Shown one piece after another: positions 12,351 to 60,293 of a stretch of DNA of 64,000 nt; position 1 is the stretch's first letter; each line of letters begins with the position of its first letter. The notes below the pieces were generated by a model. That model saw nothing but the letters and a program-made list of their open reading frames with translations, had not been told where the DNA came from and ran no database searches. Both the position numbers and the translations under genes were made by a program. This DNA is from Collybia mongolica (taxonomy: Eukaryota; Basidiomycota; Agaricomycetes; Agaricales; Clitocybaceae). The stretch lies in contig JAAXNY010000011.1 of assembly GCA_013420905.1 (NCBI GenBank), forward strand, positions 248,001 to 312,000. The letters run 5' to 3'.

Positions 12351-12603
12351 CATTTAGTGGGGAGGGGCAATCACGGTTATTGCCGCGTGAGCATTACATA
12401 ATCAAAATCATCGAAAATGGCCAGTTTCAGTGACCCAAGCCATCCTCACTCAATTCTCAATGGATTTTCATGATCCTTTGTGCATAGATAATCTTTAACA
12501 TATGCTGGGTATAGCTGAGTGTGTTTTTTTTGACCTAAACTACAATCCTTGGACCATGATAAGCTAAACTACATGTATACTACTTGTGGCAAATATCAGA
12601 CAA

Positions 12604-15600
12604 TTACTCTTCCTCACTCCCAGAGCTCACAGAGTCAAACTTCTCCCCTTCAGAGCTTTCTCCACCTTTAGGAACATTTGATGTACCAGGTACCTCATCA
12701 TTGAACTTTAAAATGGCTTCTGTCAGAGCTGCCATCTTGCTTTTTTTGTTCTTGATTTTGTATGCTTTTGGCACTCCTGCTACCATGTTTCAATAGATAT
12801 TCAGTTGTTCATCAAGTTGTGGATTTGTCAGATCATTGAGCTTTGTGATATCAGTCACTTGTACCACTGTGGCTTTCAAAACTACAGGAGTTGGCTGTGT
12901 CTCTGCACATTGGGAACTGCCACTTTGTAGAGCCTGGGGATGCACAATTGTATACTGAGCAATTGCAGCTTGCAATGCTGTAAGCTTTGCTGACTTGGTT
13001 GGTGTTTTTGATTTCATTGGAACTCCTTCCACCAAAGTCCGATAGATATCCAGCTGTTCATCAAGTTGGGCATTTGTCATAGCTTTGAGAATATCAAGAT
13101 CTGTTACTTGATCCACTGTTGCAAGATGTTTAATCCTGTTATTCAATTTCTCCTTGGCTTTTCTATCTTTCTCATGTTTTCCTTGTACAGCCATTTCAGC
13201 ATGTTCAATGAGCTCCTTTCTCCGCTTCTTCTCAAGTCCCTTGCTATCAACAAACCGTGCAACCTTCCGAATATGCTCATAATCATCCTCTTTGAAGTTC
13301 TTGAGCATGAATTCTTCAGTACCATTTCTGTTACACATAACCATTGCATTATACAAGTGCATTGACGTTGTTGGCTTTTTTCTTATAAAGAGCTGATAGG
13401 ATCCAAGGGCTCCCTCATTGATATCATTTGTGGATGGCATCCATGCTTGATCTCTCTGCTCAGGTGTTGCAAGGTCAATTACCCCACCTGGAGCAAATTC
13501 CAGTGTGAATCTCTCCCAGGTTTCTAAGGCTCCTTGAAAGAATCTAATCAGTACTGGCCTGATATGTGGAAGCTCTGGGGCTTTTTCAATGATTGCTGCA
13601 ACAACCTCTGGCTCTTCCCATGGTTTCTTGTCCATTGTACCATTTTTATAGTCACCAGATATAAGTGGATCAGGATTGTCAATAATAGCCTGCATATGTT
13701 CCTTGAGCTGAGTATGTACTGGACCAAGATTGAGCATGTTAAGTTCTTCTGTTCCTGGGCCTCATATTTGGCGCATATATGGGTGTGTAATAGCTTGTGC
13801 ATACAAAGCAAGAACACAAAGCTCAGTAAGTGTAGGAATGTCATGCAATGCATTGTACAGGTTGTGCTCTAAGTGGCTGAATCTGCAATTTTGTTTGCAA
13901 TCTTGTACAAAATCCAAGAATCTGATTATAGTTCTCAGATATTGTATAAGCATTCCACCTGCCTTCCCAAATGACTGATATTGGATATTGGTAGTATCTG
14001 CAAAGGTAATTGCCTTTCCTATTGCTTGTTCCATATAGTACCGGAAGGTGTTCTGCTGTCCTTTTTTATCATCTTTGTGATTAAACATATATCCAGCAAT
14101 TGCTGCTGCTTTGCTGCCTCCACAAGTGGTGGAATCTATTGCCTGTTTCTCAGCAACTGTCATTTCTTCATGATCAGAGATTCCAGCTATGACTTGAGCA
14201 TTATCCCTATTTGCTAGAAGAATAGGCCCTGTGTTTCCTGTGTCTGCCCACCATTGGCTCATAGCAATGTCTCCACCTTTTCCACCATTTAAATCTTTAT
14301 GCATTCCACATCCAGCCCAAATAAACAAATGCAAAGCATTTTTCTCTTCTTCAGATAAATTCACATAAGCTTCTTTTCCCAATTGCATAGCTAAGGCCCT
14401 CATCATTTCAGCACCTTTTTCTGCCTGATCATCTTTAGTAAGCTGATTCCATTTCTCAAGGCCCCCAGCTTCTAGTATCATCTTTTCATTCTCCTTCTGG
14501 ATGAGAGCAAATAGTTCACCTGCTATCATCTCAACCATTCTCTCACCACCAAGTGTTTCATAAAGCAAAGTCCTCTTTTAGTTGTTGTAGTAGCCTTGCT
14601 GCTTTTTTCTGATCCTCTGCATGGTCAGAGTTCATGCCCTTGAGCTTAGCAAAAAACTCAGCCAGGAGCAGAGACATCTTGTGTCTTCGTGCTAGAGGAC
14701 TTTGCTGGAACCATTCAATTATTTGGAGTATCAGTTTAATAAGACCATTAACCTGAGTTTGACTTGTATGGTCAACAGAGGAATAAACACCAAGAAGCTG
14801 GCTCTGATGTTTGGTTTCTGCATCATCCTGAAGATATGATACTTTGGCTTTTAGATTAATATGACGGGATTCAAAGTTTATGTGTTTGTGTGTTGTCCCA
14901 TCCCCACTGACTGTCAAACCATCAGTCTGGCCTATTTCAAATCCAAGTTGTATTTCTGCTGCAATACCACCCTCCAGAATTGCTCTTTGTACAGTTCTCC
15001 GGCTCATTTTAGCACCCACTGAAACACCTGCTGCTTTGCAGATATTTTGTATAATTTCTCCCACATAAGCCTGGGAGCATCCAGCATTGATCAGTGATCT
15101 AGCTAGAGCATGTGCCTCAGGAGTATATACACCTTTCTTCAATAGCTGATATTTGTTGTTCTCTTTCCGAGCTTTGCCTCTTGCCTTTTGAACAGCATGA
15201 TCAAGTACCCCAGGTGCTCTCTCACAATACATTTCCAATGCATGTCTTTTTTTCTGAGACTCTGCAAGTCGGTGCTTTAGATTAGTTATTTCAGAGGTAC
15301 AGTTGTCAACAAGTGAAACAAAGTGGTTTTCCATATGTTGGCTTTCAGATCTGAGCTCGTCAAGAAGGGAAATAGCTTTAGATGCATCAGCTTTAGCAGT
15401 TGGAAGGTCTACAGACTTCAACAAGTCAATCCAAGCCTGGAGTTTTCTTTGAGCTTTCCGCCTCTCTACTCTAAGAGCTTGGTATTGTTGCTTTGATTTC
15501 TCCTCAGATTTGTTCAGCTTTTCCTCCTTATCTTTGAGAATAGATGTCTTTTCTGCTATTTCAGTTTTGGCCATGGCCAATTCTAGTTGCACCAATTCCA

Positions 15601-15796
15601 ATTCTTCTGTAACATTGGCAAGCTGTACCCTCAAAGATTTTGGCTTAGTTGAAGGCTTAGAAGGAGGTTCTACCTCAGAAGGAGGCTCTACCTCAGAAGG
15701 AGGCTCTACCTCAGAAGGAGGCTCTACCTCAGAAGCAGTTCTAACCTTGTTCATAGCCTTCATGTGATTTATCTGAGCCCTAGTTCTTTTTGCCAT
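12604..15796 (-). pseudogene. putative transposase, coiled-coil and SAP-like repeats, three lesions
   Basis: Starts at ATG 15796 and ends at TAA 12604. In order: four tandem SEVEPP repeats; a long coiled coil (residues about 55-190); a conserved block GVYTPEAHALARSLINAGCS and KMSRRTVQRAILEGG; a strand-like LTVSGDGTTHKH; GMNSDHAEDQKKAARLL; IWAGCGMHKDLNGGKGG; NDINEGALGSYQLFIRKK; two C-terminal copies of a SAP-like module (LDEQLDIYR..VEGVP..KL.AL..AI). Lesions are a 1-base frame change near 14565, TGA at 13762-13764 (before GPGTEE) and TGA at 12790-12792, where the first SAP-like copy has Arg. The Asp and Glu in the SGDGTT, NSDHAEDQ and NEGALG blocks are candidate DDE residues, by inference only. 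I remember this protein as a common uncharacterised Agaricomycete family. Confidence 0.8.
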
Positions 15797-16713
15797 AGTG
15801 TTCCAGAAAAATCCAATATGTCAAGACCCAAGATAGACAAGTACCCAGAAACAGCCTGATAGCCAAGAGACTTTCCTTTAAGCTACAGCCCCAGTATTGT
15901 GTCAAGAAAGACCCAAGGTAGCCCAGTAATGCCACTTATAGGATCCTGCTATCTAATAATTGGAGATCTACCCAAGATCAGAATGATCAGAACTGTAAAC
16001 TGTGAGTAGTTTTGTCAGTCCAGTTTGAGAGAAGATATCTAGGCTGAATTATCATAATCAGAGGGTCAGATCCAAGTTACAATAAACATGTAGGTGCATT
16101 ACCACAGATCACTGACTGATGGGCAAGATAAGACAGATCCTAAGCAGAACTTGTCAATATTCTGGTGTAAAAAGGGTTTAGGAGACATTAGGAGGGCAGG
16201 GGAACATAATTTAAATGATAGAACCTACTAGTGGCAAAGATATTTCACTTTGAGGTGGTATGTGGGTGCAGAGCATCAAGAATGTTGAGGAAGAGATAGG
16301 AATAGCAGGTGATCAATATTTTTAAACTCCGCTCAGTCATCAGATCACCAGCAAAATGGCAGATGACAGTGCGCCATCACTGACATCTGCCTTGGCGACA
16401 ATACAGCTTAACTTCTTTGATCAATCCCACATGAAATTTCACGGGCAAGAGGGTCTTTGTGGCCGATTTTTCGATTTTTTCTTTTTCAGCTCTGCAGGTC
16501 TAAAAAATATATGTAAATTAGGTAAATCTTATGCAATATGAAGGAAATTAAAAAATCCGCCACAAAGACCCTCTTCAGGCTGGTTTTTCGAGCAACTTTT
16601 ATTATTATTCTGATCTCTTATTTTCAGTTTTTGAGCCACCAGCGATGTGGGTCACCAAATGGTGCTTTTTCAGGTGGGACAAACAACCATAAACAAATCA
16701 AAAATAACCGGGA
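15797..16713. other. 5' flank and subterminal region of the TIR transposon
   Basis: No ORF is supported. It should hold the promoter of the minus-strand gene. A block at about 16345-16700, containing gagggtctttgtgg.. and its inverted partner ccacaaagaccctctt, is shared with the MITE at 57290-58014, so these bases are the conserved cis-acting end. The inverted pair (16449-16465 and 16558-16574) can form a hairpin. Confidence 0.6.
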
Positions 16714-16734
16714 ATTGCCCCTCCCCACGTTTAG

Positions 16735-35739: not shown

Positions 35740-36505
35740 GACTAGAAACAATGTAGATGATAGTTTATAGAGGTCATGTGACCCTGGGAAAATGCTACCA
35801 AGCAAACAAGCAATGCCTGTGCACAAAAACCATCAGAACTTACTTTTCCCAGGATCATGGACACTAAATGAGCATTCAGATTGTTGTCATGTATTTGGTA
35901 TGCTTATGTGATGGAATAGATCATGTGACATATGTCAATATATAGAGAATTCAATCCTCTTTGTATTTCAGGTAAATATAGTAGTAGTTGTTGATTATTC
36001 CAATGTTTAGTGTAATTTCCCACAAGGGTCATGTTTGGTAAGGGTCATTGTTGTTATAAGATGTTTGTTCATCTTTGGTATAACACACAGACCTTCAAAA
36101 CTAGCTGAATCTGGACATTTCTGATATTTCGCTCAAAATAGACCATGGGAAAAATGTGCTCAACAAGGAAATTGTAGAGCCATGTTTGTACATTCCAAAC
36201 ATATAAAAACAAAGTTAATAGCTTTACTGGTTATGGAGAAAATCACAAAATAAATTTTGAAACGCGACGCTCAGAAATATTAGATATGCATAATTTTGAT
36301 GGCATCATCAAAGGCATTATGTAAGCATCCCAAATACATGCAAATTATGTCACAATACTTTGTATTTGTAGAGAAATGCTGTAAAAAGCCATAAGAGAAG
36401 AAAAATCCCATTATGGAAATATTTTCCCGCGGTGTTGAAATATGAATCAATGAATGAATGAATCACCTTTCTGCCCGAAAACTGGGTTGATAAAGAACTC
36501 GTCTT
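35740..36505 (+). repeat. dispersed repeat R4, copy 2 (uninterrupted)
   Basis: Full-length counterpart of 8538-8830 plus 10145-10610. It carries the empty insertion site cattgttgttataagatg at about 36048, which dates the 8831-10144 element as a later insertion. No ORF. Confidence 0.8.
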
Positions 36506-43400: not shown

Positions 43401-46156
43401 TGGCAGAAGAACAACGCAGTGAGTCAAACAAAACGTGGTGAGAACACTGAACCCTGGCTCACCCAATTTCCCCATTAGAACGACTATCTGATGAGTGGAT
43501 GGCTCCAATCTATGCGTTCTTCCAGCCAACTCCTTCCATTGTGACCGTTGATGGACGGCGTGTCCACGAATTCAGGTGCACTGCAACAAATTGTAAGGGA
43601 TGTGGCAAAAACCCAAGAATGGTCCGATGTTACCTTGATACATCCGATCAAAACTTGACAGGAAACCTTCGCAAGCATGTGCGACTGTGTTGGGGAGATG
43701 AAATCTTAGATGGTGCGGATGCTTGTGGCGACCTAGAGAGTGCTCGGGAAGGGTTAGACAAAGCCAAGAAGCTAAAAGACAGATCAATCACAACAGCCTT
43801 TGAGAGGAAGGGGAAAGGGGTGGTTACCTTTTCTCATCGCCAACATGATAAAGCCCAAACTATGTTCGTAGTGATCAACTATCATCTAACCTATCTAATG
43901 TATCGCTCAGGGCTGAAATCGTTTGTTGGGTATCCGAAAGCATGCGACCTTTTTCCATTGTTAGCGATCGAGGATTCCAATGCCTCATGAAGACTGGCAG
44001 ACCGGAATATTACATACCTTCTCCTTCCACCGTCTCGCGTGATGTTAAGCAAGTGTTCACAAAGGTTTGGGGTAGGATTGCGAAGATGCTTCAAGTAAGA
44101 ATTCAAGTCAGCTTCGTGATGACATAGGACGAGATTGATTTACCCCATCCAGGAACATGAGGGTGCCCTCAGCTTCGGGACAGATGCATGGACTTCACCT
44201 AACCACAAGGCTTATATTGCTGTAACCGTCCACTTTGAGCAGAACGGGGAGCCAATGTGTCTTCTGCTTGAACTTGTGGAGGTTGCAAAGTCTCATCCTG
44301 GCGTGAATCTTGCATCTGCATTCGCGAAAATACTAGTTGATTTTGGGATAGCGCACAAGGTAAATATGCTGGATGATTTACATGAAAAAATGGGACTTAC
44401 AGTGATCTCACACACCAGATTCTCAGTGTTACGTGCGATAACGCATCGCCAAATGACGTGATGATCGACACACTTGCTGAGCTAATTGTTGCGTTCCCAG
44501 GTGCCGCAAATCAAACGCATTGCTTTACACATATTCTGAACCTAGTTGTCAAAGTAATCCTTCGCCAATTTGACGTGCCGAAAGCCAAGGCAGATGAAGC
44601 GCTTGATGTGGCGTCGCAGGCGCTGGTAGACCTTGCAGGAGATATCGAGATGGAGGAGGCAGCAATGGATGAGAGAAATGATGATGAGGATGATGACGGA
44701 GAAGAGGGATGGGTTGATCCACACGATAGGATGTCACAGGAGGATGTCAAACTCTTAAAATTACTCGAAGTCAAGACAAGCTTGATCTGGCGGTGTGTCC
44801 AGTGCGGTTGGTCCTAGTAAAAGTAAGTTTAAACTCAGATTAAACTCTAATGCTGGACTGGTACTCATCCAATCCAGCTACGAAAACTTGCGTATGTGAT
44901 CAAAAACTCCACGACAATCCTACTCCCTCGCTGGATTCAGCTCCTTGAAGATCTGGCAGATGATGCTACCAATCCCCTTGCCATTCGGATGATGCCACGC
45001 GACGTTGCGACATGCTGGAATTTGACGTACAACATGCTTATGTTTGCTCTCGAATATCGTGAGGCAATCGATGAAATTTCTGGTGACAGGGATATGAGGA
45101 AGTATGAGCTTTCAGATGAGGAATGGGAGCTGGTTCAGCAGCTGTGTGATGTATTGGGAGTACATTGTGCTGGCCGTCTTCCCGTATCCTGCCACTCACA
45201 TTTTCACAGATATTCAAGGACGCGACCCTTTTCTTTTCGCATTCAATGCCAAACCTTGCCACTGTGATACCTGCAATGGACCACATTGATGTGCATCTCG
45301 CGACTGCAAGCCAAGACTTGAAGTACTCGCTTGCCATTCGCGCTTCGCTGGCACTCGGAAAAGCCCATCTAAACAAATACTACAACATGACAGACCAGTC
45401 AGAAGTCTACCGAATCGCCATGAGAGAGCGCCCCTCCCCCTGATCATTCTATTCAATTACAATGCTTTTGAGCAGTCTTACATCCATGACACAAACTTCA
45501 ATATTTCCACAATGCCAACTGGGACGACGCGTGGATCACCACTGCGACGGCAATTGTCCGTGATGAGTTTGAGCAAGCATATGCGGACCTCCCCATTGAT
45601 GAGGTCGTCGTTTGTACGAAGAATGTATGTGCTACCCATCCAATGTGTTTCTGCATCAAAACTTGCTAACATACATTTTTTAGGCCACTAGACCTACCAA
45701 GTGGAACATCTTTGACGACCTACCATTGGTCTCTGCCCCCATCACCTCCAAGCCCAAGGACGAGCTTCAACAGTACCTCGAGTGTCCTGTCGAGAACGTC
45801 AAGAATGCATTTGCGTGGTGGGTCAAAAACCGGATGGTCTACCCCCGTCTCTCTCGGATGGCATTAGACTACTTGTCAATACCAGGTATGTGTTCTGTTA
45901 TTAGTCTCCTGTACTTGATCTAACGACTCCTACAGCTACTTCAGTTGATGTGGAGCGTGTCTTCAGTAAAGGAAGACTCGTTCTATCTCATGTTTGGAAT
46001 GGGCTCTCAGTTCAGTCCACGTGTGCATTGATGTGTCTCGGCACTTGGAGCAGGATGGGTTTGGTGAAGGATAAGGATGTGATGCAGGCTGCGAGACTGC
46101 CTGATGTAGATGGGAGTGAGGCGGAGCTAGATGGTTGTTGGGATGATATATTGTAG
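43401..46156 (+). pseudogene. hAT transposase (BED finger to dimerisation domain)
   Basis: Spliced gene read in blocks: FRCTATNCKGCGKN..LRKHVRLCW (BED-type finger, 43572-43694), MKTGRPEYYIPSPSTVSRDV (43984-44043), GALSFGTDAWTSPNHKAYIA (first catalytic Asp, 44162-44221), LIVAFPGAANQTHCFTHILN (44482-44540), MPRDVATCWNLTYNML (44992-45039), MDHIDVHLATA (45279-45311), YPRLSRMALDYLSIP (45841-45885) and TSVDVERVFSKGRLVLSH (45937-45990), the hAT C-terminal dimerisation motif. Introns account for several breaks, but stops near the start (after SNKTW) and single-base disruptions around 44100-44150 and 44440-44460 make it doubtful. The left end is cut by, or adjoins, the B' LTR; no left TIR is seen. Confidence 0.75.
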
Positions 46157-47661: not shown

Positions 47662-47993
47662 CTATCCCACCCCCTACAATCAGTTTGCACCCTCTTTCGG
47701 TTTGCACCTAGATCTTAACATCTGCCATCCCGTTCCCTTAGTGTTTTGAGATCTGACATACTGGTACCTCTATGAATACAATCCTGGCATTTTAATACAA
47801 TTCTATGTGTTTTTGAACATGGTCAAAAAATGGCCTTGTGTCATGCTTGCCACCAGTGCCGAATAATCAAATATAGATAATTGGCCTCGGTTATAAGTTC
47901 GTCTCTTGGTGTTTCATTCTCCGAGACCAACTGATGTGACGTGTCTGTGACAAACTGAAAGAGGGTGCAAACCAATTGTAGGGGGTGGGATAG
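47662..47993. mobile_element. 332-bp MITE with TA target duplication (Tc1/mariner-like)
   Basis: Ends ctatcccaccccctacaat and its complement; the inverted repeat extends imperfectly about 45 bases (gtttgcaccctctt). TA flanks at 47660-47661 and 47994-47995. Removing it rebuilds the R-A phrase acttctattggcaattc. No coding capacity. Confidence 0.88.
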
Positions 47994-56532: not shown

Positions 56533-57289
56533 CAACTTCAAGCTGGTACTAAGATAAATTAGCAATATGCATTGAGCATTTTAGAAAGAAACCTACCCGG
56601 ACATATGACATATCCCAGCTGTCTGATCTAAGTGGAATAATTTCACGTGCTTGTATTGTATCACCTCCTTCTAGATGATGCATCTGGCCATATTGGATAA
56701 ATTTGGTATCTTGAGGTATAAGTTTCCTGATAAGTGATGCAGATTTACTGAATCAAGTAGCTAGTGTTGCTGTAAGTACTTTCCACAGGGGAGTGGGGAG
56801 ACATATTAGTCCCTTGGGTGGGGTGAAAATATGTAATGGGTCTAAATCAAGCTAATGAGTATATAAGTAGTTGATTATGATGGGAAACATACATAAGGGA
56901 AAACTGATGTTCCTCTCATCAGATTTAGGAGGGAGGAGGACAAGCTTTCCATGCAAGTCATAGAGGAGAGTTATTTGTGTTAAATGAGCACAAGAAGTAA
57001 CATAGCTATTGATGTTTGGATAGGGGAACCTTCGACTTTTAATATGGTGGAGGAGGTCACCACAATAACGTTCCATTGGAAATGCCCAATATGCCCAGTC
57101 TGGCCCCATAGCCCTAATAGTTGGTGCAATATGTAGAAGGGCATGGATGGTTAGAGGACATGTAGATACCCGCATTGGATCATGGTTATAGTACAACCTG
57201 GAAAATCATCAGATCATGTTCAAAATTAAATATATATCAAAATACTTGCTCTTCATATTTCTCAACCCAGCTATTAAAACCCCTTTCAA
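56533..57289 (-). pseudogene. TNP2-type transposase, downstream middle part
   Basis: From right to left: RGFNSWVEKYEE directly after the MITE, an intron, then LYYNHDPMRVSTCPLTIHAL, AMGPDWAYWAFPMERYCGDL and LHHIKSRRFPYPNINSYV (about 57196-57010), and further QDTKFIQYGQMHHLEGGD and WDMSYVR (about 56720-56590). These follow the catalytic region of fungal TNP2 proteins (FPMERFCG, AIKSRRYPY). It is cut by element B at 56532. Confidence 0.8.
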
Positions 57290-58014
57290 TGGGGAGGGGC
57301 AATTGCTGGTTATTTTTTATTTGTTTATAGTTATTTGTCCAGCCTGGAAAAGTGCCATTTGATGACCCACATCACTGGTGGCTCAGAAACTGAAGATAAT
57401 GGATTGGTCTAATGACAAAAGTTGCTCAAAAAATCAGCTCAGAGAGGGTCTTTGTGGTGGATTTTTGGATTTCCTCATATTTTTCAAGATTCATCAAAAT
57501 TACATATGTTTTTCAGACCTGGGAAGCAGAAAAAGAAAAAATCAAAAAATCCGCCACAAAGACCCTCTTGCCCCTGAAAATTCATGTAGGATTGATCAAG
57601 GAAGTTAAGCCATATTGTGGCCAAGGAAGATGTCAGTGATGGCACACTGTTGTCTGTTACCTTGCTTGTGGTCTGAAATTTAGATAGCCGAGACATGTCA
57701 AGTCACTAAATTACACACCAAATCTAATCAGAAGTGAGCCGAATATGGAAACATGTTATTTGAAACTCAGCTCGAAACTATACCCTCATGGAAAATAATT
57801 TAATTCTCATTAACACACTGCTCTATGGAGCTCAAAACAAGATGGGAGCTCTTTACATATACTGCCCTTCAATTTTCACTAGCATGACATTTTTTATCTC
57901 ATGAGGATGTGCTCCCAAAAGCATAAAAATTTGGTGGGTCACAAAATCTCTCCAAATTTGTCATTTGTTTACCTGTATTATGAACGTGGAGTAGGTAATC
58001 ATTGCCCCTCCCCA
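57290..58014. mobile_element. 725-bp MITE of the 12358-16727 transposon family
   Basis: Ends tggggaggggcaat / attgcccctcccca, as in the 4.37-kb element. The left ~370 bp match the right subterminal part of that element in reverse (ggttatttttt.atttgtttat, gacccacatc.ctggtggctc, aatccgccacaaagaccctc). TSD ctttcaa at 57283-57289 and 58015-58021. With the element and one TSD removed, the TNP2 frame reads DELERGFNSW without a break. Confidence 0.92.
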
Positions 58015-60293
58015 CTTTCAAGTTCATCAACTTGATCCTGAGTAATCTCAAATTGAAGGCAAAGGTTTAATAACCTAACTAATTTAATAAAGTGTGTATA
58101 ATATTGCGGACTTGTAAATCATCCTTTAAGGAGAGTTGGTGCAACATATAAAGTCCAGATTGAATAGGTTTCAGCAATCATCTGTGCCTTTTCTGATGCA
58201 ATATTTGGGACCCTTGAACCAAATGCTGCAGGAATTGTATCCCCAGCCTTTGCTGTGGCCTGACCAATAGCTTCCCATACAGTTGGTGCTAACACATGCC
58301 TGCACCATCATGGGAAAGATCTTTGTAATTTCCAGTCCACAGGGAAATCAGATTTGGAATGAGATTGGACCATATAAGGTGCATAAAGTCATAGGGAAAT
58401 GAGACTGGAAAAGAGAGGGAACTCAAAGTACTGAGTAGTGGAATGCCTTTGACACCATATTTAGTAGCAAGGCGTTCAGATTCTGCAGTGTTCAAGGCAT
58501 ATTGGACCTTCTTTGCTTGTCTTAAGAATGTTGCATGGTCTTGTAGTGGAAGTGTGGATGCATGATATTGTTGTTGAGGGTCTGGAAAGCCATTTTGTCG
58601 CAATGGAACATAGTGTGTTGTTTTTTGTGAAAAGGGAATGCGAACTCCCCAAATAGTACACATTCGGCATGGATATATTGCATTGTGGCCCTTCATGCAC
58701 ATGAGCATTGACATTACAGGAATATCACCAAAGACAATGATGAGGTGAGCATGAAGTAGGAAGATTTCTTTACTGATTCCATTGAAGGCTGAAACCCCAA
58801 TCTTGAGCTGCAGAAGCTCCTGGACTACAGGCCAAAAAAATGAATCTGTGTTGTCAGGCTTTTTGGGCCCTGGAATAGTCCCTAGACGAATTATGTTATC
58901 CTTGAGAAAGCATTCCTCAGGAGGCAGGTTATAATTAAACATGATTATAGGCCATGCCATCTTGGTATGGAACTTGAAAGGACCGAAGCCCTCTGTAGAT
59001 AACCCAAGTGCAATATCACAAGGATCAGAAAAAAACCACTCTGGAAGTTCTTTGTCACCAATTGTAACAAATGTCTTCTGGAGTAGTCATAATGGGTGCT
59101 GTCAAAGATATCTGTCATTTTTCTTGGGTCATGTTTGTGATTGGATTGATACTGCATTTTTCGAGCATACGGGAAATTTCCAAGCATTGCATGGAGTCAG
59201 GGAATAATAGGGAGATACTCTAGATATGAATAGGGTGTTGTCCCATCAGATTTATAGCAGTTGGAATTACATTTAGGGCATTGTTTGAGGGCTTCATATG
59301 GGCCAGTGTAGCAGACACAAGATGAACAACAGCAGTCATAGCATACGGGCTGAAAACCAGAGAGAAACTGAATATGTTTCTGTGTATTCTTCAGTGATTC
59401 TGTTGAAGTTATATAGCAGATTTTCTGGAATGTTCTATCCATTAGGCCATCTTGAACTTTCAGGGCAAAGAACTGGATGAGCTTCATATCACTCATATCT
59501 AGCATTTGGTCTGTAAACTAGTTAATATGATGCACATAATGATAACAATGTACATACCTAATTGCGAGACTTCCTTCATAAATCCCTCCCCAAGGAGATC
59601 CCATACTGAGATTCCTGCCTGGCTTGCCTCTGCAATTGGCATTTCAAATCCATCACTGTCTTCCCCAAAGTCTTTGTTGGAACCATCAAAGTCCCCCCCC
59701 ATATTGTCATTGCCTTTGTCTTCTCCAGATCCAATCTCGTCATTGTTGCTATCCCCATCATCCTCATCAACAGTAAATCATTGTGTTGAATTGTGCCCCC
59801 ACTGTTGCTGGCTGAGCTGATTGATATGTCCTGCAATACAAGAAGAGCAGTGTAAGTTGGACAAGCCATATTTGTTTGAGCAATCCTCCAATGGAGGTAA
59901 GGATGGTGCCAATGGTGGATCAGGAGAGCTGTCATGAAATCCAGATGGTCCTGCCTCACCTGTCAAGTTATCAATAATTTCTTCTGCATTATTTTGAGAG
60001 CTGAAAGAGGTGTTGCCCTTTGTAGAACTAGGGGCCAGTTTCTTTGCTAGTTGGACTTGTGAGTGGGGGGTGGATCCAATAACTTTATGCTTGGGATGGG
60101 GACAGGACGATATTTTCCATTGGGGCTGATCTTCCTGGTTGAGGCTCTGGATAAGAGACTGGTTCTGTGATAGGATTTTTGATGTGAGGTGAGAGTGCCC
60201 TTTCCCTTTCAAGTGCCAGCTCTCAGTCCTGGAGTTGACCCTTTTGGCACAGCCACATGCACAAAGCACTGTCTTACTGCCCATAATGCGCAT
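58015..60293 (-). pseudogene. TNP2 (Transposase_21, CACTA-type) transposase, N-terminal and catalytic part
   Basis: Begins MRIMGSKTVLCACGCAKRVN (Cys-rich N-terminus) at 60293, followed by a long low-complexity segment and an acidic stretch. Later blocks: CCCSSCVCYTGPYEALKQCP and CNSNCYKSDGTTPYSYLEYL (zinc-binding, about 59335-59215), KMTDIFDSTHYD, DPCDIALGLSTEGFGPFKFH, MAWPIIMFNYNLPPEECFLK (58960), LIIVFGDIPVMSMLMCMKGH, CRMCTIWGVRIP, FPYDFMHLIWSNLIPNLISL, and GQATAKAGDTIPAAFGSRVP to AETYSIWTLYVAPTLLK (about 58250-58135). A frame change lies near 59085. The gene continues at 57289 and 49572. Confidence 0.85.

Follow-up and report, generated by a model that had tools for sequence, protein, structure and literature searches.

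The window analysed here is a 64,000-nucleotide stretch of the Collybia mongolica genome (contig JAAXNY010000011.1, abbreviated C11, positions 248,001 to 312,000), and it contains an element at positions 12358-16727 that carries a transposase gene. The element very probably represents a cut-and-paste family of DDE (Asp/Asp/Glu) transposons that inserts with a 7-bp stagger at nTnnnAn targets and that, by ancestry, is a deep sister or an early branch of the hAT superfamily. The predicted fold of the transposase, its CxxH motif and the target rule of the family together place it beside hAT.

Ends, copies and target duplications

The window element is bounded by perfect 14-bp terminal inverted repeats (TIRs), as a first-pass annotation made from the sequence alone had reported, and sequence homology between the two ends stops past 14 bp. 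The 7-bp target duplication given in that annotation is preserved at six of seven positions in the window. A second copy (C11:426804-438096), 99.9% identical to the window element over the 3.5 kb compared, is flanked by an exact CTAAATG/CTAAATG pair, which is the reverse complement of CATTTAG; the original duplication of the window element was therefore 7 bp. Perfect inverted 14-mer pairs spaced 0.5-8 kb apart number 235 in the window. The flanks of 3 of them agree at six or more positions out of seven, and the window element and the short 57290-58014 relative account for two of these. The 46-Mb, 26-contig assembly contains the TGGGGAGGGGCAAT 14-mer 88 times and its reversed control not once.

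A protein search of the same genome returned close copies of the window gene (type 1) and a divergent group (type 2), and the two labels were assigned from the identities in this search. Proteins of the two types are from 32-35% identical (first piece, long matches) to 45-46% identical (second piece, best matches). Type-2 elements end in TGGGGGTGGGCAAT, which is found at 78 genomic sites against one for its reversed control. Convergent end-pairs no more than 12 kb apart number 22 for type 1 and 16 for type 2; L041 and L042 do not form such pairs. An exact 7-bp duplication flanks 31 of the 38 end-pairs genome-wide. Among the type-1 pairs, 17 of 22 are exact and three agree at 6/7 (L040, L051 and the window element); the duplication of L058 is offset by one base, and L047 has none. 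Type 2 has 14 exact duplications among 16 pairs, with 5/7 agreement at C1:5757381 and no duplication at C1:4808311. Exact repeats of 5, 6, 8, 9 or 10 bp at the ends were found in none of the 35 pairs tested, and an exact 4-bp repeat in one. Two pairs are not independent, as L057 mirrors L056 (an inverted duplicate) and C11:426804 mirrors the window element; L057 was left out of the target counts.

The duplicated targets follow the consensus nTnnnAn, with T at position 2 in 27/28 and A at position 6 in 24/28, against flanking backgrounds of 33% T and 27% A. Two further duplications, CTGTTAG and TTTCTAT, agree with it. When the flanks were joined with the 7 bp kept once, 7 of 35 matched uninterrupted sequence across the junction, the element loci and the window being searched; the two clearest of these unoccupied sites lie in the window (Table 1). 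The TIRs, the 7-bp duplications and the unoccupied sites show transposition by staggered target joining, and the description of a mobilisable TIR family is borne out. Type-2 copies are 98-99% alike over long stretches of alignment; this similarity, together with their intact duplications, suggests that type-2 elements have been active recently.

Some features of C11 concern its own history. Both the window element (at 426804-438096) and the short relative (at 464149-464873) recur on this contig with their flanks included, each inverted and in unchanged relative order, which indicates that this stretch of C11 has been duplicated or rearranged. The copy at C11:426804-438096 exceeds the window element by 6.9 kb.

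Transposase gene

The first-pass annotation placed a single gene of about 1,060 codons inside the element. One gene is indeed present, but it is not a single open frame: the window gene is disrupted by a frame shift in the 14558-14577 overlap and by two in-frame TGA codons (13762-13764 and 12790-12792). The window copy of the element is broken. Relatives have Arg at both TGA positions, which would be consistent with C-to-T mutation of methylated sites. The C9 gene copy is uninterrupted over 885 codons; its left end has one mismatch and its duplication agrees at 6/7. The type-2 copy on C11 consists of three pieces in the same frame, the last of 696 codons. The stops between these pieces are largely common in number and kind to other type-2 copies, and judging from this pattern the type-2 gene likely contains introns.

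Twenty-six gene loci were counted, with 8 weak gene matches (E > 1e-7) excluded. The claim that the gene lies within the ends was confirmed in both subfamilies, with both own-type ends found within 12 kb of the gene at 2/8 type-1 and 8/17 type-2 loci. At least one such end is present at 5/8 type-1 and 17/17 type-2 loci (C13:983512 uses the end of a neighbour), and the single locus unassigned to a subfamily (C15) has neither end nearby. The two-ended type-2 gene copies have exact duplications in seven of eight cases, and six of the eight weak matches also lie within type-2 end-pairs. Type-1 gene copies are mostly decayed, as follows from the missing ends near many of their loci and the imperfections of the C9 copy.

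Table 1. Positions in the window of the element, its gene and related sites
Feature	Position	Strand	Remarks
Whole element, type 1	12358..16727	-	4,370 bp; strand of the gene
Left target duplication	12351..12357		CATTTAG
Right target duplication	16728..16734		CGTTTAG; 6/7 against left; exact in second C11 copy
Left TIR, TGGGGAGGGGCAAT	12358..12371	+	
Right TIR	16714..16727	-	0 mismatches against left
Transposase piece 1	14558..15820	-	ATG codon 15794-15796; predicted coiled coil, helix-turn-helix-like helices, first half of RNase H fold
First Asp codon (piece 1)	14900-14902	-	
Second Asp codon (piece 1)	14624-14626	-	
Transposase piece 2	13762..14577	-	Frame-shifted against piece 1; predicted helical insert; ends at TGA 13762-13764
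CxxH codons (piece 2)	Cys 14308-14310; His 14299-14301	-	
Aromatic Tyr codon (piece 2)	13978-13980	-	
Transposase piece 3	12790..13761	-	Predicted end of helical insertion, C-terminal helices; ends at TGA 12790-12792
NEGALG Glu codon (piece 3)	13414-13416	-	
Transposase piece 4	12604..12789	-	C-terminal tail; frame of piece 3
Non-autonomous relative	57290..58014		725 bp; same ends; exact CTTTCAA duplication (57283-57289, 58015-58021)
Unoccupied counterpart of C10:2141762-2142485 insertion	35771..35963		CTAAATG once; 190/193 identical, no gap
Unoccupied counterpart of C4:2447394-2448118 insertion	47697..47852		CTGACAT once; 146/156 identical, no gap

Predicted protein and its relatives

The family protein P0001 was modelled with AlphaFold2 from a 34-sequence alignment (predicted local distance difference test 82.6, predicted template modelling score 0.68). 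The model begins with a long coiled coil (45-210) followed by helices (225-289). Strands at 293-302, 305-316 and 330-341, a helix at 346-366 and a strand at 386-391 come next. The second half comprises helices at 395-490, a strand at 493-496, a helix at 498-519, helices to about 790, a helix at 797-812 and C-terminal helices. D298 lies within the first strand and D392 immediately past the fourth; C497-H500 begins the helix after the fifth strand, and E800 begins the helix after the insertion. The two Asp residues are 94 residues apart, and the second is followed by CxxH after 105. This CxxH, the CGMHKDLN block of the first-pass annotation, is present past the second Asp in 31/31 aligned rows with letters. 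The aromatic of the NTRYQS block is Tyr or Phe in 26 listed of 27 rows with letters and may correspond to Hermes W319.

DDE chemistry is proposed because the protein has a predicted RNase H fold and conserved acids, and on the same grounds the protein is probably the transposase, as had been suggested. Fold positions and conservation also favour the Asp/Asp/Glu of the SGDGTT, NSDHA and NEGALG blocks (D298, D392, E800) as the likely catalytic triad. E662 and E772, however, are conserved as strongly as E800 in the alignment.

In structure comparison, the predicted fold is closest to the hAT transposase Hermes. The alignment covers 344 residues (model 256-837 against Hermes 135-609), and an all-helical insertion separates the region of the second Asp and CxxH from the putative catalytic Glu. 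A model of a fungal hAT transposase has the same order of elements, with a short stretch from the second Asp to CxxH. ISCth4 matches the P0001 model at a Foldseek E of 0.0025; the 50 VIA structural matches listed include neither ISCth4 nor a P transposase (6p5a), and for P this absence excludes nothing.

Sequence profiles gave a different picture from the fold. Pfam searches of the window pieces, of two longer frames and of 34 relatives matched no transposase family, so the superfamily match that would have counted against the first-pass annotation did not appear. Pfam matches up to E 10 were scattered and unrelated, the best being DUF7842 at 0.0011 in a single member. No BED finger is among the Pfam matches listed for members, and the model has the coiled coil and helices instead. 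The hAT C-terminal dimerisation domain PF05699 has 123 matches in the genome and the KDZ (Kyakuja-Dileera-Zisupton) domain PF18758 has 55, and neither has any at the 26 gene loci; PF18758 is also without a match in 34 members. Sequence searches of the PDB with the single protein and with a profile gave best E values of 0.047 and 0.92, both to non-transposases.

The core alignment was then compared by hhalign with 16 fungal hATs, 9 KDZ pieces of the same genome and reversed decoys. The pairing with hAT had a probability of 0.5% (E 0.11, not significant), and of 0.1% with each half of the hAT set; KDZ scored 0.1% (E 0.46) and the reversed decoys 0.1%. Positive controls reached 99.9% for two hAT groups and 100% for two halves of the present family. 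KDZ against hAT also scored 0.1%, so this comparison cannot separate kinships that deep. Of the comparison proposed in the first-pass annotation, the RNase H fold was thus recovered, and a match between sequence profiles was not.

Searches of 5.8 billion proteins, in which about 8,000 candidates were scored each, yielded 37 relatives, none with a precomputed Pfam domain. Fifteen have species names and the remainder are metagenomic. The named genera are Coprinopsis, Mycena, Serpula, Wolfiporia, Amylocystis, Leucogyrophana, Artomyces, Hericium, Laccaria, Tricholoma and Sphaerobolus, which are all taken here to be mushroom-forming Agaricomycetes, and every named relative seen is annotated as 'hypothetical protein'. 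Viral contigs and prokaryote genomes were searched and contained none. No published description of the family was found in full-text literature searches, which did not cover Repbase, Iyer et al. 2014 or most subscription journals; the label of an undescribed system goes too far for a divergent hAT-like lineage.

Relationship to known transposons

The family works like hAT. It shares with Hermes, Ac, Tam3, Kat1 and fungal hAT elements the RNase H fold with D/D/E, in which an all-helical insertion precedes the last acid, a CxxH that follows the second Asp, an aromatic, possibly at the corresponding position, in a TR(W/Y/F)xS block, TIRs, and a target whose second base is T and whose penultimate base is A. 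The Hermes target consensus is nTnnnnAn (PMC2803484), and nTnnnAn is this consensus less one base. The fold and the target therefore do not support the earlier view that the protein resembles no known kind. In contrast to hAT, the duplication is 7 rather than 8 bp, and the N-terminus has a coiled coil and helix-turn-helix-like helices with no match to a BED finger or, at the other end, to the C-terminal dimerisation domain. The family also has about 105 residues between the second Asp and CxxH. SGDGTT and its variants show no Trp in the alignment at the position of Hermes W182, two residues past the first Asp, whose role has been described (PMC4763223). Sequence similarity is not detectable. 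The absence of BED, PF05699, the 8-bp duplication, W182 and sequence similarity means that the family cannot be filed as a recognised hAT member, and by sequence profiles it lies outside hAT as currently recognisable.

The strongest competing explanation, although a rather unlikely one, is that this is an ordinary, fast-evolved hAT member, for example near hAT7, which better profiles would place within the hAT tree. The closeness of the fold to Hermes and the nTnnnAn target agree with it, as does the motif order D, D, CxxH, TR(Y/F)xS, E, which parallels D, D, CxxH, TRWxS, E of hAT. The best, non-significant hhalign pairing sets these blocks opposite each other, with NTRYQS facing hAT NTRWxS in the correct order, which is a lead and not a proof. 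Within hAT, the hAT5, hAT6 and hAT7 groups deviate from the 8-bp duplication; hAT7, known from rust fungi (Puccinia, Melampsora), duplicates 7 bp and groups with fungal and plant hAT (Kojima 2025, PMC12730594). It thus shares a fungal host and the duplication length with the present family, but it is placed in hAT by sequence, whereas hAT profiles miss this family.

A position in or near KDZ, the other large DDE group of mushrooms, is improbable. Kyakuja, like hAT7, makes 7-bp duplications, so this length has precedents; its hosts are Agaricomycetes (basidiomycetes) as here, and KDZ is common in this genome. However, its elements have CA..TG ends without TIRs (PMC12730594), unlike the TGGGG..CCCCA ends with perfect 14-bp TIRs of this family. 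None of the 55 KDZ matches coincides with a gene locus, and members lack the domain. The low hhalign score also speaks against KDZ, though weakly, since hAT compared with KDZ gives an equally low score.

A closer relation to P, Dada, MULE or Kolobok, the CxxH or DxxH groups, than to hAT is no more probable. The groups hAT, Kolobok, P and MuDR all have CxxH, and Dada resembles this family in its D/CxxH DDE core, its 6-7-bp duplications and, in some members, an extra domain between the second Asp and xxH. Dada, however, targets small-RNA genes, and TIRs are absent from its U6 and U1 families (PMC3706591), while here TIRs are present and the targets, which share only nTnnnAn, appear scattered. 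The 34 members have no Pfam match to these groups, whose profiles were not compared directly. Galileo, of the P superfamily, also makes a 7-bp duplication.

That the gene is a passenger mobilised by an unrelated transposase is very improbable. In its favour are the broken state of the window copy and the many type-1 pairs, most of the total, that are non-autonomous or interrupted; against it, the protein has a predicted DDE RNase H fold, and proteins only 32-46% identical lie within matching ends in both subfamilies.

Short, enlarged and nested forms

The length of 21/22 type-1 pairs differs from 4,370 bp, and 17 of those are 681-736 bp long. The element at 57290-58014 had been called a deletion derivative of the window element. 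It has the same ends and an exact duplication, but no more than the first 387 bp can be aligned to the right end of the element, at 83% identity; with about half aligning, a simple internal deletion of the window copy was rejected.

Several other arrangements were observed. At L053 (C8:1216096-1217023), a type-1 short element is nested in another copy of its own family, and the empty form of its target is present in many sister copies. At L042 (C1:3285725-3288028), two type-1 ends point apart with mirror-image flanks, resembling an inside-out site duplication. Four type-2 elements, each about 1.8 kb long (C1:6027661-6029507, C5:2285044-2286864, C8:612403-614262 and C10:1563547-1565367) have exact 7-bp duplications and retain a weak match confined to the N-terminal helix-turn-helix-like part of the transposase; these could be genes for DNA-binding fragments or decaying deletion forms. 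At C2:275455-321528 (L096, L097), type-2 ends stand 46 kb apart with a 6/7 duplication (cttatat/cttgtat) and are enclosed by type-1 ends (C2:274766, 321571). Either nested insertions have enlarged a type-2 element here, or the whole is a mobile segment of very large size. The window also contains an ordinary hAT, with a PF05699 match at about 45762-45890 (C11:293762-293890).

Proposed mechanism and significance

In the favoured reading, a hAT-related cut-and-paste family, the single gene of this class II element would encode an RNase H-fold DDE transposase that recognises the 14-bp ends TGGGG[A/G][G/T]GGGCAAT together with subterminal DNA and then excises the element. Joining at 7-bp-staggered points in nTnnnAn targets would duplicate 7 bp. 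This protein, and no other, would perform the chemistry. The N-terminal coiled coil may form multimers, and the helix-turn-helix-like helices may bind the ends in place of the BED finger of hAT. In Kat1, Hermes and Muta1, CxxH and W319 are important either for the formation of hairpins or for activity (PMC4763223, PMC5225508), and W319 is partly replaceable by other aromatics (PMC5225508). By analogy with hAT, CxxH and the NTRYQS aromatic may help to form hairpins on the flanking DNA.

A more far-reaching proposal is tentative and falls slightly short of an even chance. The family may be a CxxH DDE lineage of superfamily rank, seen so far only in mushroom-forming fungi and in soil or plant metagenomes, that split off before the known hAT clades. 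It would have kept the hAT insertion domain and the palindromic T..A rule, with a stagger that is now 7 bp, a helical module added after the second Asp and ahead of CxxH, and the BED finger replaced by a coiled coil and helix-turn-helix-like helices.

Pfam-type annotation leaves this transposase a 'hypothetical protein', and its copies and short derivatives consequently remain unclassified in mushroom genomes. With T and A target positions as in hAT but a 7-bp rather than an 8-bp cut, the two form a natural pair for studying stagger in hAT-like transpososomes. The apparent recent activity of type-2 elements makes a transposition assay look feasible.
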